Below, piece after piece: positions 56,695 through 61,005 of a stretch of 64,000 nucleotides of DNA. This DNA is from Curvibacter delicatus NBRC 14919 (GTDB lineage Bacteria > Pseudomonadota > Gammaproteobacteria > Burkholderiales > Burkholderiaceae_C), in contig NZ_BCWP01000023.1 in the NCBI RefSeq assembly GCF_001592265.1, positions 1-64,000 of the forward strand. The letters run 5' to 3'. The notes under the pieces were generated by a model that searched no databases, was not told the DNA's origin, and worked only from the letters and a program-made list of their open reading frames with translations. Numbering within the stretch: position 1 is the stretch's first letter; each line of letters opens with the position of its first letter. The translations under genes were made by a program, and so were the position numbers.

Positions 56695-57615
56695 TCATCG
56701 ATCCGAGCGGAGCGGCGTCATCAGCGACTGGAGTTGCGCTGCTGCCGCTTCCGGGTTGTCGGCACCTGTGATGGCACGTACCACCGCCACGGAACCCACG
56801 CCGCTGGCGAGCACTTCGGGCAGTTTGCTGGCATCAATGCCGCCAATGGCAACAAGCGGGTAGTCGCGCATCAGGCGTGCGTACGCATGCAATCGGCCAG
56901 CCCCCTGCGGGGCCGTTGCCATTCGCTTGAGCGTGGTCGGGAACACCGCACCCATGGCGATGTAACTTGGGCTGACGCGGTCGGCGCGCAGCATTTCGGC
57001 ATAGCCGTGGCTGGAGAGTCCCAGGCGCAGGCCGGCTGCCCGGATGGCGGCGAGGTCGGCGACGTCCATGTCTTCCTGTCCGAGGTGCACGCCATAGGCG
57101 CCGGCGGCAATCGCGGCTTGCCAGTGGTCGTTGATGAAGATGCGTGCATCGGTGCCTCGTACCGCGTCCACCGCGGCCTGAACTTCGCGTTGAATGGCGC
57201 TGGCGTCATCCGACTTGAATCGCAATTGGACCGTGGGCACGCCGGCGCGAGCCATCCGTCCCACCCAGGCGGCATCGGGCAGTACGGCGTACAGGCCCAG
57301 TGCTTTCGGGCAGGGGGCAAAAGCATCCTCGCGAGGCCAGGGGCGCATGCCAAAGTCGGCCGGCTCCTCGGGCCAGGCCTTGGCGTCGAAACGGCCTGTG
57401 CGACGTGTCATGGCTTGCCAGGCCTGGGCCAGACATTCAGCATCGATTTCGACAAAGCCCATAGCCTTGCAGGCCTGCTTGGCAGCCCGATAGACGGGGT
57501 CAGTGCTGCCGTAGGTCATGGCAGCCTGACTTTCGACAGGCAGGGCCAGGGCGGCCTGGTGTGCGGCGACGATGGCCGCGGCCTCGAGGGATAGTGCGTT
57601 CACGGCGAGGTTCAT
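56695..57615 (-). CDS. thiE: Thiamine phosphate synthase with N-terminal extension
   Basis: A 306-residue protein. Residues about 105-300 are a ThiE barrel joining HMP-PP to thiazole phosphate: LGLYAVLPDAAWVGRMARAG, VQLRFKSDD, FINDHWQAAIAAGAYGVHLGQEDM, LGLSSHGYAE, YIAMGAVFPTTLK and VAIGGIDA. The typical ThiE is about 210 residues, so the first 105 residues are an added region (EIDAECLAQAWQAMTRRTGR, EPADFGMRPWPRED) that I cannot assign. The ATG overlaps the thiG stop (57612-57615). It is the last gene of thiO-thiS-thiG-thiE. Confidence 0.88.
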   Translation of the reverse strand: MNLAVNALSLEAAAIVAAHQAALALPVESQAAMTYGSTDPVYRAAKQACKAMGFVEIDAECLAQAWQAMTRRTGRFDAKAWPEEPADFGMRPWPREDAFAPCPKALGLYAVLPDAAWVGRMARAGVPTVQLRFKSDDASAIQREVQAAVDAVRGTDARIFINDHWQAAIAAGAYGVHLGQEDMDVADLAAIRAAGLRLGLSSHGYAEMLRADRVSPSYIAMGAVFPTTLKRMATAPQGAGRLHAYARLMRDYPLVAIGGIDASKLPEVLASGVGSVAVVRAITGADNPEAAAAQLQSLMTPLRSDR

Positions 57616-58415
57616 GCGTGGTGCCAGAAAGGGGTGCCCAGTAACGGCGTACTCGGCTGGGCGGACTCTTGTTCGGCCATGGCGCCGGAGCGATATGCAT
57701 CGCGTCCGGCCTGGGTTGCGGCGGCGAAAGCGCCGGCCATGGTCACGGGCTCCTGCGCCAGCGCGACGGCGGTGTTCAGCAGCACGCCATCAAAGCCCCA
57801 TTCCATCACCTGGCAGGCATGAGAGGGGCGTCCCAGGCCCGCGTCCACAATCATCGGTACGTCAAGCCGTTCGCGCAGCACGCGCATGGCATAGGGGTTG
57901 ATGGGCCCCTTGCCGGTGCCGATGGGCGCAGCCCAGGGCATGACGGCCTGGCAGCCCACATCCACCAGGCGCTGGCACAGCACAAGATCTTCGGTGCAGT
58001 AGGGTAGTACTTTGAAATCGTTCTTGATCAGCCAACTGGCGGCTTCCACCAGGTTGAGCGTGTCGGGCTGCAGGGTGTAGTCGTCGCCGATCAGCTCGAG
58101 CTTGATCCAGGCCGTTTCGAACACCTCGCGCGCCATCTGTGCCGTGGTGATGGCTTCCTGGATGCTGTGGCAGCCGGCGGTGTTGGGCAGCACCGGCACG
58201 TTCAACGCCTTCAGCAAGTTCCAGAAATCGTTGCCGCTCTCACCGGGGGCCGCCGTCTGACGGCGCAGCGAGGCCGTGAGCATGGCCGGCTTGGCTTGTT
58301 TTACGGCGGCTTCGAGCACGGCCGGCGACGGATAGCGCGAGGTGCCCAGCAGCAGGCGACTGTGGAAGGTTTCGCCGTATAGGATGAATGGGTCTTGGAT
58401 GGGGGCGGTTTGCAT
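57612..58415 (-). CDS. thiG: Thiazole synthase
   Basis: A 267-residue TIM-barrel enzyme that builds thiazole phosphate from deoxyxylulose phosphate, glycine imine (from ThiO) and ThiS thiocarboxylate. It shows FILYGETFHSRLLLGTSRYP, VLPNTAGCHSIQEA, WIKLELIGDDYTLQPD with the Schiff-base lysine, and the phosphate-binding VMPWAAPIGTGKGP. The start is ATG 58415 (MQTAPIQDPF); upstream frame extension runs into the repeat element and is not used. About 150 bp containing that repeat separate it from thiS. It overlaps thiE by 4 bp. Confidence 0.95.
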   Translation of the reverse strand: MQTAPIQDPFILYGETFHSRLLLGTSRYPSPAVLEAAVKQAKPAMLTASLRRQTAAPGESGNDFWNLLKALNVPVLPNTAGCHSIQEAITTAQMAREVFETAWIKLELIGDDYTLQPDTLNLVEAASWLIKNDFKVLPYCTEDLVLCQRLVDVGCQAVMPWAAPIGTGKGPINPYAMRVLRERLDVPMIVDAGLGRPSHACQVMEWGFDGVLLNTAVALAQEPVTMAGAFAAATQAGRDAYRSGAMAEQESAQPSTPLLGTPFWHHA

Positions 58416-58458
58416 GTCAGCAGTCCATGTGGTTTGCGATGGCATATGTGTGGAAGAA

Positions 58459-58560
58459 CCCAACCGGGAAACGCCGTGGAACCGGCTTGGCCGGGCCACT
58501 GGCGTTGCCCCCTGCAAGGGGGGAGGAGGAGCGACACGAAGTGCGCGCAGCCTGGGGGTG
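58459..58560 (-). repeat. Dispersed two-hairpin repeat, copy B, inside the thi operon
   Basis: On the minus strand this begins CACCCCCAGGCTGCGCGCAC and contains CCCCCTTGCAGGGGG and CCGGCCAAGCCGG, as in copy A at 29807-29905, with small loop changes. It fills most of the thiS-thiG gap, so it would be transcribed within the operon mRNA and could stabilise or terminate part of the message. Confidence 0.85.
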
Positions 58561-58567
58561 TGCCACT

Positions 58568-58765
58568 TTATCCACCGGTGACAGGCGCAATGATGTCAAC
58601 GCGATCACCCGGCTGAAGTCGATGTTCGCCGTACTGCGTCTTGGGCACGAACTGCGTGTTGACCGCGGCCGCAAACGGCGGCTTGGCTTCAATGGCCGCA
58701 ATGGCATCGAGCAGCGTTGCCCCGTCGGCGAGTTCGTACTCGTTCTTGTTGATGAAGACTTTCAT
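58568..58765 (-). CDS. thiS: Sulfur carrier protein ThiS
   Basis: A 65-residue ubiquitin-like protein ending in the required Gly-Gly (IIAPVTGG). ThiF adenylates this end and it then carries the thiocarboxylate sulfur to ThiG. KVFINKNEYELADGATLLDAI is the beta-grasp start. The gene lies 4 bp after thiO. A ThiF/MoeB activator specific for it is not in the operon; TcdA nearby is a relative but is not expected to do this job. Confidence 0.93.
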   Translation of the reverse strand: MKVFINKNEYELADGATLLDAIAAIEAKPPFAAAVNTQFVPKTQYGEHRLQPGDRVDIIAPVTGG

Positions 58766-58769
58766 GGAT

Positions 58770-59870
58770 TCAGGTCGGCACAGTTTCCAGATGCAGGTCG
58801 AGTGAGTTCGCCAGTGTAGTGCGCTGCTCGTGCACCAGTTCCAGCACGGCGTCGAGCAGGGCCGGGGAGATCATGAAGCCGTGGCGGTACATGCCGTTGA
58901 TTTGCAAGCTGCGGGGCCCCAGCTGACGGATGGCCGGCAGGTTGTCCGGCAGGGTGGGGCGGCACTGGCTGGCGATCTCCAGGATGCGCGCTTCGGCAAA
59001 ACCGCTGTGCACGGCGTAAGCCGCGCTCAGCAGTTCCAGCGTGGAGCGCACGCTCGGTGGCGAGAGGTCATTGCTCTCAATCTCGGTGGCGCCGATCACG
59101 AACACGTGGTCCTGCTTTGGCGCGATGTAGATCGAATAGCGCGGGTGGACCATGCGTGTGGGGCGGCGCAGGGTGACTTCGGGGGCATGGATGCGCGCCA
59201 CTTCGCCGCGGATGCCGCGCAACTGCGGCCATTGCGCTTGTGCACCCAGGCCGCGGCAGTCGAACACCCAGTCCGGCTGGCCTGCCGTGCCGGGGGCGAA
59301 GTCCTGCGGGGCGCGCGGGCTGTTCCAGTGCAGGTCAACCTTGAGTGTTTGCAGCTCGTGCAGCAGGGCCGCCAGCAACTGGCGGTTGTCGAGCTGGCCT
59401 TCACCCGGCAGGTACAGGCCTTGTGTGAAGCGGTTGCCCAGCGCAGGCTCGTACTCGGCCATGCCGGTAGCATCAAGCGCCTGCATCTTGGGCAAGGCGG
59501 GCACCTTTTCCTGGTTGGCCTGCAGCAGGCGGGCAAAACGCTGGGCGTCGGCGGCGTCTTGGCGGTGCCAGACGATGAGCGTGCCGTCCTGCTGAAAAAA
59601 CACCGGCTGCGACAGCTGCGCCAGCAGTTCGGGCCAGCGTGTGAGCGCGTAGCGCCCCATTTCCACCACGCTGGGCTCGGTGACGGCGGATTCGGCCAAG
59701 GGGGCCAGCATAGCGGCCGCGATGCGGGCAGGCGAGCCCTGGGCATCGGCGCCGCCGGCTTCATACACGGTGACGGCATGGCCGGCACGAGCCAGTTGCC
59801 AGGCGAGCAGCCGGCCCATCAGGCCGGCGCCGAGGACGACAGAGGAGGGGCGGGAAGGGGAAGTGGTCAT
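58770..59870 (-). CDS. thiO: Glycine oxidase ThiO
   Basis: A 366-residue FAD-dependent oxidase of the DAAO family that makes the glycine imine used by ThiG, needed in aerobic thiazole synthesis. The FAD loop is VVLGAGLMGRLLAWQLARAG; GSPARIAAAMLAPLAE, YLPGEGQLDNRQLLAALLHE and FVIGATEIESND (about residue 268) are typical. It is the first gene of thiO-thiS-thiG-thiE. Only 26 bp separate its start from the divergent thiD start, leaving little room for a separate promoter, which supports transcription from the upstream riboswitch. Confidence 0.92.
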   Translation of the reverse strand: MTTSPSRPSSVVLGAGLMGRLLAWQLARAGHAVTVYEAGGADAQGSPARIAAAMLAPLAESAVTEPSVVEMGRYALTRWPELLAQLSQPVFFQQDGTLIVWHRQDAADAQRFARLLQANQEKVPALPKMQALDATGMAEYEPALGNRFTQGLYLPGEGQLDNRQLLAALLHELQTLKVDLHWNSPRAPQDFAPGTAGQPDWVFDCRGLGAQAQWPQLRGIRGEVARIHAPEVTLRRPTRMVHPRYSIYIAPKQDHVFVIGATEIESNDLSPPSVRSTLELLSAAYAVHSGFAEARILEIASQCRPTLPDNLPAIRQLGPRSLQINGMYRHGFMISPALLDAVLELVHEQRTTLANSLDLHLETVPT

Positions 59871-59896
59871 TTCAAAATACCCTGATAATTTTCGTC

Positions 59897-60754
59897 ATGA
59901 CGAACACAACGATTTCTGCCAACGAAAAACACTACCCGCGTGTGCTGTCCATCGCGGGTTCCGACAGCGGCGGTGGCGCCGGCATCCAGGCCGACCTGAA
60001 GACCTTCAGCGCGCTGGGCTGCTATGGCATGACGGCCATCACGGCCATCACGGCACAAAACACGCAGGGCGTGCGCGCCATCCACGGCGTGCCGCCCGAG
60101 ATCCTCAAGGCACAGATCGAAGCGGTGGTGGAAGACATCGGCGTTGATGCGGTGAAGATCGGTATGTTGCACGCGCCCGAGGTGGTGCGGGTGGTGGCGC
60201 AGGCCATCCGTCAGTATGGGCTCCGGCAGGTGGTGCTTGATCCGGTGATGGTGGCGACCAGCGGTGACCGCCTGATTGCAGAAGAAACGGTGCAGGTGCT
60301 GGTGCAGGAGCTGTTCCCGCTGGCGACCGTCATCACTCCCAACCTGGACGAGGCCGAGCTGCTGCTGGGCCATCCGATCGAGGGCATTGCCGCTCTGGAG
60401 CCGGCGGCACGCGAGCTGCAGGCGCTGGGGGCACCCAGCGTGCTGCTCAAGGGCGGCCATTTGCCAGGAACCGACGTGGTGGATGTGTTGCTGGAGAAGA
60501 GCCAGCCGTCGCAACGCCTGGCGTCGCAGCGCATCGAGAGCCTCAATGTCCACGGCACCGGCTGCACCTTGTCGTCTGCGATTGCCGCCCATCTGGCACT
60601 GGGGCTGGATCTGGCCACTGCCGTGGCCCGGGCCCGGGCCTATATCCTGCGCGCGATTGCTGCAGGCGCTGATGTGCGCACCGGTCACGGCCACGGTCCG
60701 CTGAACCACGGTTATGCGCCGATGGCGATGCAGACCTTGTCTGCGCCCCGATGA
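59897..60754 (+). CDS. thiD: Hydroxymethylpyrimidine/phosphomethylpyrimidine kinase
   Basis: A 285-residue ribokinase-fold kinase that phosphorylates HMP to HMP-P and HMP-PP. It has RVLSIAGSDSGGGAGIQADLKTFSALGCYG, VLDPVMVATSGDRL, VITPNLDEAELLLG and the catalytic NVHGTGCTLSSAIAA (anion hole and Asp region). The ATG at 59897 lies 26 bp from the divergent thiO start. It is oriented opposite to the rest of the thi genes and lies between the TPP riboswitch and thiO, so any transcript from the riboswitch to thiO is antisense to the whole gene. Confidence 0.95.
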   Translation: MTNTTISANEKHYPRVLSIAGSDSGGGAGIQADLKTFSALGCYGMTAITAITAQNTQGVRAIHGVPPEILKAQIEAVVEDIGVDAVKIGMLHAPEVVRVVAQAIRQYGLRQVVLDPVMVATSGDRLIAEETVQVLVQELFPLATVITPNLDEAELLLGHPIEGIAALEPAARELQALGAPSVLLKGGHLPGTDVVDVLLEKSQPSQRLASQRIESLNVHGTGCTLSSAIAAHLALGLDLATAVARARAYILRAIAAGADVRTGHGHGPLNHGYAPMAMQTLSAPR

Positions 60755-60845
60755 CTTTTCCGCACGCGTCATGACAATCGTTTCAAAGGCAGGGGCGGCG
60801 GGCGGCGGGGCCAAAGCGCATCAAGAGTCGATACGCGGCCTGTTG

Positions 60846-60944
60846 AGCCTGCTTCCCTGCGCGAGGATTACCTCAGTCAGGTTCAAAGGGACTGTCTCAG
60901 TCGCGGCCCACCTATTTCAGGCGGGGCAACACCCCCAGCGAATG
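60846..60944 (-). promoter_or_regulatory. TPP riboswitch (THI element)
   Basis: On the minus strand the conserved segments appear in order: GGGGGTG (60936-60930), CTGAGA (60900-60895), GAACCTGA (60884-60877) and GCGCAGGGA (60862-60854). This order and spacing match the TPP-binding aptamer. There is no thi gene directly downstream: the next minus-strand gene is thiO, 976 bases away, past the antisense of thiD. No U-run terminator follows; a C-rich, G-poor stretch on the minus strand (about 60790-60812) suggests Rho-dependent control. It starts about 40 bases after a terminator of the fpr gene, so it has its own promoter (candidate -10 TAAAAT at 60971-60966). Confidence 0.92.
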
Positions 60945-60960
60945 TGCTCTTGTGAGCACA
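60943..60960. promoter_or_regulatory. Palindrome TGTGCTC-TTGT-GAGCACA before the riboswitch
   Basis: A perfect 7+7 inverted repeat with a 4-base centre, just upstream of the riboswitch and near the predicted transcription start. It could be a repressor operator or a 5' RNA hairpin. No known regulator is assigned. Confidence 0.35.
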
Positions 60961-60976
60961 GGCGAATTTTAGAGCC

Positions 60977-61005
60977 AAGAAAAAGCCCGCTCTGAGGCGG
61001 GCCTT
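60977..61005 (-). terminator. Intrinsic terminator after the ferredoxin reductase gene
   Basis: On the minus strand GCCCGC and GCGGGC (61002-60997 and 60990-60985) form a stem with a 6-base loop, followed by TTTTT (60984-60980) and then CTTGG. It lies 30 bases after the stop of the reductase gene. Confidence 0.88.

Follow-up and report, generated by a model that had tools for sequence, protein, structure and literature searches.

How can a riboswitch serve genes that lie behind a complete gene of the opposite strand? The question is raised by the thiamine locus of Curvibacter delicatus NBRC 14919, which is contained in a window of 64,000 nucleotides (positions 1 to 64,000 of contig NZ_BCWP01000023.1, assembly GCF_001592265.1), the whole stretch of DNA that was analysed. 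On the minus strand of this window a thiamine pyrophosphate (TPP) riboswitch points at the 3′ end of thiD, which is encoded on the plus strand; past thiD, the minus strand carries thiO, thiS, thiG and thiE. The aptamer was separated from the thiD stop codon by 82 nt, and the start codons of thiD and thiO were 26 bp apart. An earlier note, made from the sequence alone, had described this layout; its gene order was confirmed by Pfam matches and coordinates, and its aptamer by a match to RF00059, with coordinates right to within a few bases. The note had also proposed that the riboswitch transcript crosses all of thiD in antisense and then serves thiOSGE. On the comparative evidence this is most likely the case, as judged from an antisense frame under selection, its coupling to thiO, the loss of a riboswitch and a −10 element of thiO's own, and the order of genes in four Rhodoferax loci. 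What had not been foreseen is that the antisense part is probably translated. The locus is thus best read as a noncontiguous operon under riboswitch control, in which the antisense stretch is translated as a bridge, a reading to which we give a probability of about 0.83.

A comparison of this junction within the family, which the earlier note had recommended, was made on 186 loci. The pool comprised 234 loci (the window and L034 to L266), gathered mainly through similarity to thiO and drawn from the thiO/thiD loci of same-genus and same-family genomes together with 80 named loci, the titles of which included Hylemonella, Curvibacter, Rhodoferax, Limnohabitans, Acidovorax and Variovorax. The 186 loci with distinct thiD were retained, and those left out had no usable thiD or one already represented. 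The TPP aptamers of the relatives were located with a covariance model built in the present analysis. Based on the riboswitch, cytX and gene position only, with the antisense frame playing no part, the loci were divided into five classes. Layout A (23 loci, window included) has the riboswitch, antisense thiD and thiO, no cytX, and a thiD-thiO gap free of any riboswitch; layout D (19 loci) is the same with cytX after the riboswitch. Limnohabitans sp. Rim28 (L160) belongs to A and Variovorax boronicumulans (L161) to D. Layout N (41 loci) has no riboswitch in the stretch examined, layout own (80 loci) has one between thiD and thiO, and in the control class ctl (23 loci) thiD is not divergent from thiO. 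Layout N is not strictly without riboswitch, since a TPP riboswitch was found about 6 kb before thiD, on the thiO strand, in 6 of 20 upstream stretches fetched; the class counts keep the original assignment. As layout A was shared by 23 of the 186 loci, the arrangement in the window is not a product of chance.

A first line of evidence came from the stop codons of the frame that runs antisense to thiD in the codon register of thiD, which appear as the thiD codons TTA, CTA and TCA. No such codon was found among 6571 in layout A and one among 5424 in layout D, which is a single stop per 11,995 codons for the 42 loci combined. The corresponding counts were 22 of 11,779 in layout N, 66 of 22,821 in layout own and 27 of 6448 in ctl, at mean GC contents at third codon positions (GC3) of 0.84 (A), 0.866 (D), 0.792 (N), 0.859 (own) and 0.831 (ctl). 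Codon bias had to be considered first, because several genes of the window carry long antisense frames and fdxA has no TTA, CTA or TCA at all in 1744 codons. Since related sequences are not independent, gains of stops were counted on a tree of 162 loci, from which the ctl loci and L056 (no full thiO) were left out. On the main tree, built from thiO and thiD so that the counted codons contributed to it, one gain fell on the branches of layouts A and D against 37.2 expected at the rate of layout own (Poisson P = 3e-15). Per unit branch length this amounted to 0.11 gains in A and D and 4.16 in own, with layout N intermediate at 2.57 (21 gains). The two controls showed no difference between the groups: gains of A-ending Val, Thr, Pro, Ala or Gly codons in thiD were 25.5 per unit branch length in A and D and 27.8 in own, and gains of TTA, CTA or TCA in thiO were 6.94 and 6.97. 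A Fisher p of 2.4e-10 accompanied the tree count and its codon and gene controls. A second tree made from thiO alone again gave one gain on the A and D branches, against 38.4 expected. Codon bias alone as the cause of the open frame was ruled out by these counts, and the comparison of sequences indicates that the antisense frame is kept free of stops by selection.

The frame is also joined to its neighbours at both ends. In the window, the proposed bridge open reading frame (ORF) begins with an ATG at 60772, 18 nt before the thiD stop, and its TGA overlaps the ATG of thiO. Among the relatives the frame ended between −4 and +7 of the thiO start in 22 of 23 loci of layout A, 15 of 19 of D, 26 of 41 of N and 4 of 80 of own; with shuffled gaps and random phase the mean numbers were 5.5, 3.6, 7.1 and 1.3. 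Even in L035, L036 and L046, where the gap is 131-175 nt long and bears a repeat, the frame was open throughout and ended at the start codon. At the other end, an in-register ATG 3-25 nt before the thiD stop was present in 18 of 23 loci of A, 4 of 19 of D, 13 of 41 of N and 4 of 80 of own, a count in which kinship was ignored; the 18 loci of layout A are mostly kin within one genus. In layout D an in-register start codon overlapped the cytX stop in 14 of 19 loci, compared with 4 of the 48 own loci that have cytX (Fisher p = 2.5e-7, kinship ignored). Five of these 14 overlaps were ATGA or GTGA and nine were of the form rTGNN-stop. Both junctions were found in 12 of the 19 loci of layout D, 11 of them without an internal stop. 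In layout N, an ATG of the frame shared an ATGA with the stop codon of an ORF upstream in 10 of 41 loci, and this ORF encoded a short-chain dehydrogenase/reductase (SDR) in all three such loci tested (L105, L080, L127). The antisense frame is thus fed from no fewer than three kinds of upstream neighbour, namely a riboswitch leader, cytX or an SDR gene.

The history of the junction was read from the genes around it. In four Rhodoferax loci (L130, L144, L150, L162) the order is FNR-TPP-cytX-thiO-thiS-thiG-thiE with nothing antisense in between, and thiD lies past thiE on the other strand. The riboswitch behind FNR thus heads a unit in which thiOSGE is contiguous, and in the window antisense thiD stands in the place of cytX. 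Elsewhere among the relatives, the place between riboswitch and thiD is taken by cytX or by a LuxE-LuxC-ABC-SDR cassette, and six relatives of layout N, five of one genus, have the order FNR-TPP-LuxE-LuxC-ATPase-permease-NMT1-SDR-(antisense thiD). In three loci of the window's own genus (L055, L057, L058) thiD is co-directional within the operon. The earlier note had considered the arrangement as a possible relic of a thiD inversion. This candidate was rejected: thiD was divergent from thiO in 163 of 186 loci, across layouts A, D, N and own, and it is the gene between riboswitch and thiD that varies among relatives.

Taken as an operon, the locus would work as follows. At low TPP, a transcript starting just upstream of the aptamer would not be shut off. 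Ribosomes would enter at the bridge ATG, translate some 300 codons of the stretch opposite thiD, stop at the TGA overlapping the thiO start and re-initiate on thiO, and thiS, thiG and thiE would be carried on the same RNA. Rho suppresses antisense transcripts, and translation over thiD probably shields the RNA from Rho, which would otherwise end it. In the simplest history, the ancestral operon would have had the order TPP-cytX-(antisense thiD)-thiOSGE and have lost cytX in the lineage of the window; the riboswitch would have been kept, we propose, for the sake of thiOSGE, which continue to need it. What the sequences show is the aptamer, the layouts, the open frame with its start/stop overlaps, the selection for openness and the lack of a riboswitch and a −10 of thiO's own; what we infer is the transcript and its translation, the part played by Rho, the response to the ligand and the order of the historical steps.

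Several observations weigh against this reading. No Shine-Dalgarno-like string, of those sought, preceded the conserved ATG of layout A. Eight of the nine rTGNN-stop overlaps with cytX lie in one motif derived from thiD and may share a single origin. The sole exception among A and D, L113 of layout D, has an internal stop 36 nt inside the thiD 3′ end, after the overlap with cytX, and an independent-pairs test on the thiO tree yielded only two supported pairs, too few for significance. The remaining points concern loci without riboswitch. No TPP riboswitch was found in 14 of the 20 upstream stretches fetched for layout N (three of them shorter than 4.5 kb), and several of these loci have an open, coupled frame. 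Three loci of the window's genus (L051, L054, L056) had none in the stretches examined and yet keep the short junction and the open frame, which means that thiO can be fed another way. In L049 and L050 there is no TPP riboswitch at the locus and the frame is broken. Kept in the former and lost in the latter, the frame can apparently be fed or replaced by other promoters.

One such promoter could lie in the 26-bp gap itself. A block reading AATTAT on the thiO strand and GATAAT on the thiD strand is conserved and nearly symmetric; it matches the −10 consensus at four of six positions on the thiO strand, so that it could start thiO too, and a gap of this kind is also present in L051, L054 and L056. 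Symmetric −10 elements are known from divergent promoters. In that case thiO would share the −10 of thiD, and the riboswitch RNA would act on thiD only or be left over from cytX. The element that is likely the thiO −10, TGTGNTGTAAT, was found in the gap of 68 of 80 own loci and 8 of 41 N loci, and in none of the 23 loci of layout A or the 19 of layout D; neither TANAAT nor TGTAAT occurred in the thiO direction in any of the 23 layout-A gaps. The block is also present in loci with a separate riboswitch and −10 for thiO, and is therefore best read as the promoter of thiD. In 142 of 186 loci (17 of 23 in A, 2 of 23 in ctl), the 60 nt preceding the called thiD start contained the wider form [CG]ATAATT; these include 140 of the 163 loci with thiD divergent from thiO. 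At the commonest spacing (97 loci) the sixth base of the motif lay 7 nt before the start. Thus thiD seems to have a near-leaderless promoter of its own. An internal thiO promoter within thiD was not indicated either, as no thiD segment stood out in the synonymous conservation of layout A, a weak test with 3-11 sites per segment. A start in the gap leaves the selected open frame, the junctions with thiO and cytX and the retained aptamer unexplained, and we regard it as unlikely.

The frame could also be a real protein gene that overlaps thiD, is translated for its product and is an operon partner of thiO; it is long and open, its start position is conserved and it is coupled at both sides. A four-fold site of thiD is the first base of an antisense codon, so such sites should be slow if the antisense protein mattered. 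They diverged almost as fast as those of thiO: the thiD/thiO ratio was 0.98 in A and D combined (224 pairs; A 0.93, D 0.96), compared with 1.07 in own (1447 pairs) and 1.10 in N. The slightly lower value in A and D also counts against a bridge pure and simple, as it would fit weak constraint on the antisense peptide. Selection on the amino-acid sequence, which is expected of an antiparallel overlapping protein gene, was not indicated by this ratio, and the antisense ORF of the window matched no Pfam family at E 0.001. The comparison suggests that the antisense amino acids are nearly unconstrained, with at most slight constraint, and that what is conserved in the frame is its lack of stops, its start and its end; a peptide encoded by the bridge is probably without function. 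A gene kept for its product is accordingly improbable. In E. coli O157:H7, the antiparallel overlapping genes pop and laoB (PMC7103648, PMC5810103) are comparable: each is an extended open frame opposite a known gene and, in the parts of those reports available, is described as translated. They are presented there as protein genes, unlike the frame studied here with its nearly free amino acids.

A different role for the riboswitch would be to lower thiD at low TPP by collision or duplex RNA, with thiO incidental. A lowering of thiD was also the excludon-like part of the earlier note's proposal, where it would accompany the service to thiOSGE. Antisense-acting riboswitches have been described, with the SAM (S-adenosylmethionine) riboswitch at ubiG-mccBA and the cobalamin riboswitch at pocR as examples (PMC9943018), and the riboswitch of the window, which faces a gene from its 3′ end, agrees in position and orientation with the definition published there. 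As far as the accessible text of that source goes, its catalogue holds 83 TPP cases among 9,766 without enrichment (P 1.00), and thiD is absent from its main text, although an entry in the supplementary tables is possible. The riboswitches described there are held to repress the gene; unlike them, the RNA of the window most likely serves thiOSGE beyond thiD. The selection on the frame and its junction with thiO point toward thiO, a riboswitch at the same place precedes cytX-thiOSGE in the four Rhodoferax loci, and less pyrimidine kinase during a shortage of TPP would make little physiological sense. As to a possible lowering of thiD alongside the service to thiOSGE, thiD has a conserved −10-like element of its own close to its start, and in Neisseria meningitidis the region upstream of thiD gave no thiamine response in the portion of the study consulted (PMC7237195). 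We consider repression of thiD as the main role very doubtful.

There remains the question of whether the aptamer is alive. Its match to RF00059 was full length on the minus strand with 53.4 bits (E 1.1e-8), just below the curated cut-off of 54.3, which is why a default Rfam scan missed it; several same-genus copies at the same place exceeded the cut-off, and in our own covariance model, which was built with the window sequence included, the aptamer scored 95.8 bits. The core motifs CUGAGA, ACCUGA and CGCAGGGA and the helices were present. Across the 23 loci of layout A the core hardly varied, and for 8 of the 23 predicted pairs at least one sequence was changed on both sides. By eye, the window aptamer was closer to the cytX-type aptamers of the same genus (L055, L057, L058) and less like those directly before thiO (L060, L061) or thiC. 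In 22 of 23 loci of A and 15 of 19 of D, a TANAAT was present in the 50 nt before the aptamer, at a shuffle expectation of 0.3 each. An orphan riboswitch, non-functional since the loss of cytX or an inversion of thiD, agrees with the absence of cytX from the window and its presence in layout D and many own loci, and is scarcely credible in view of the invariant core, the paired changes and the conserved −10, which mark the aptamer as no dead relic, and of thiD being divergent from thiO in other layouts as well.

Two further features of the leader were recorded. In single-sequence folds of 13 leaders, the spacer CCCUGC sometimes paired with GCAGGG of the aptamer, inconsistently between leaders. 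Immediately before the aptamer lies a hairpin, TGTGCTC-ACAA-GAGCACA (60943-60960, minus strand), a possible extra helix of the leader; in relatives such as L048 and L059 its letters seem, by eye, changed with the pairing retained.

The features of the locus are collected below. The terminator-like hairpin at 60980-61002, which was absent from the listing of a consensus scan, would end the fdxA-FNR unit, so that the riboswitch probably has its own promoter.

Table: Features of the thiamine locus in the window, with the evidence for each
Feature	Position	Strand	Basis or remark
Terminator-like hairpin and T-run, GC-rich, after the fdxA-FNR unit	60980..61002	-	by eye
−10-like TAAAAT of the putative riboswitch promoter	60966..60971	-	TANAAT conserved in relatives
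TPP riboswitch aptamer (RF00059)	60837..60946	-	covariance model; by eye of the class preceding cytX in relatives
Proposed bridge ORF, 301 codons, antisense to entire thiD, in its codon register	59867..60772	-	ORF and comparison
thiD, kinase of hydroxymethylpyrimidine (HMP) and its phosphate (HMP-P), inside the proposed operon	59897..60754	+	PF08543, E 1e-96
GATAAT, −10-like, 7 nt before the thiD ATG	59884..59889	+	near-leaderless thiD promoter, predicted
ATGA shared by the bridge stop and the thiO start	59867..59870	-	
thiO, glycine oxidase (DAO family)	58770..59870	-	Pfam
thiS	58568..58765	-	Pfam
thiG as listed; true start probably near 58415	57612..58517	-	Pfam, ORF list
thiE	56695..57615	-	Pfam

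The genome of the window gave a single match each for thiO and thiD and contained two further TPP riboswitches, one before thiC and one before a LuxE-LuxC-ABC-SDR cassette. This cassette (L267, G000:C8:5500-12500) consists of the TPP riboswitch, LuxE, LuxC, an ABC transporter with an NMT1/THI5-like binding protein, and an SDR; in L268-L273, from six relatives of which five belong to a single genus, this cassette separates the FNR-side riboswitch from antisense thiD. Divergent from the cassette riboswitch, a large ORF starts on the plus strand of L267 (6253-6999), metallophosphatase-like by eye, with no Pfam match for the 249 aa examined. A second TPP aptamer was seen in L130, L150 and L162 (Rhodoferax) and in L166; it lies past the thi genes on the other strand, upstream of a second thiE-like gene and thiD on that strand. 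Divergent pairs of TPP aptamers occurred in two relatives, 90 bp apart at G022:C2:393749-394068 and 46 bp apart at G008:C400:731-995. An interspersed repeat lies at about 58460-58561, between thiS and thiG of the window, and copies 87-92% identical over 92-100 nt are found in the thiD-thiO gap of L035, L036 and L046, in which the antisense frame stays open.

Among known systems, the noncontiguous operon is one of the closest. It was described for the menaquinone genes of Staphylococcus aureus (Saenz-Lahoya et al. 2019, via the review PMC7154746), where, as far as the review's available text goes, an opposite-strand gene also lies inside a unit whose other genes serve the same pathway. In the window, thiD lies on the opposite strand within the unit and is preceded only by the riboswitch leader and the bridge ORF (by cytX in layout D). 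The unit of the window differs in being headed by a riboswitch and in having its antisense stretch kept open and coupled, for which the review text consulted gives no counterpart; its co-transcription is suggested indirectly by the open frame and the coupled junctions. The cytX-thiO-thiE operon of N. meningitidis is similar in that a TPP riboswitch heads the unit, before cytX, with thiO and thiE downstream; its action was proposed to be translational, perhaps with Rho, and thiD is outside riboswitch control there (PMC7237195). Unlike the window, that operon is contiguous as described in the sections consulted, with no antisense gene mentioned between cytX and thiO. Neither this arrangement nor an antisense bridge frame was found described in the portions consulted of the open-licence literature (including PMC9943018, PMC7154746, PMC7237195 and PMC12452182).

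These results suggested that the frame opposite thiD may represent a new kind of element, a ribosome bridge, and we lean towards this view: an opposite-strand frame kept free of stops for the passage of ribosomes, not for a product. Such a bridge would, as we are somewhat inclined to think, shield the RNA and carry translation on to the following gene, with a riboswitch leader, cytX or an SDR gene as its partner within one family. Annotation ends an operon where the strand changes and treats a long antisense frame in GC-rich DNA as noise, and the comparison contradicts both at this locus. At this locus the proposed protection of antisense RNA from Rho by translation can be tested directly, and missing antisense stops together with start/stop overlaps at both ends provide a signature by which other hidden noncontiguous operons can be sought. 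If the reading is true, ribosome bridges may occur wherever an opposing gene interrupts an operon.

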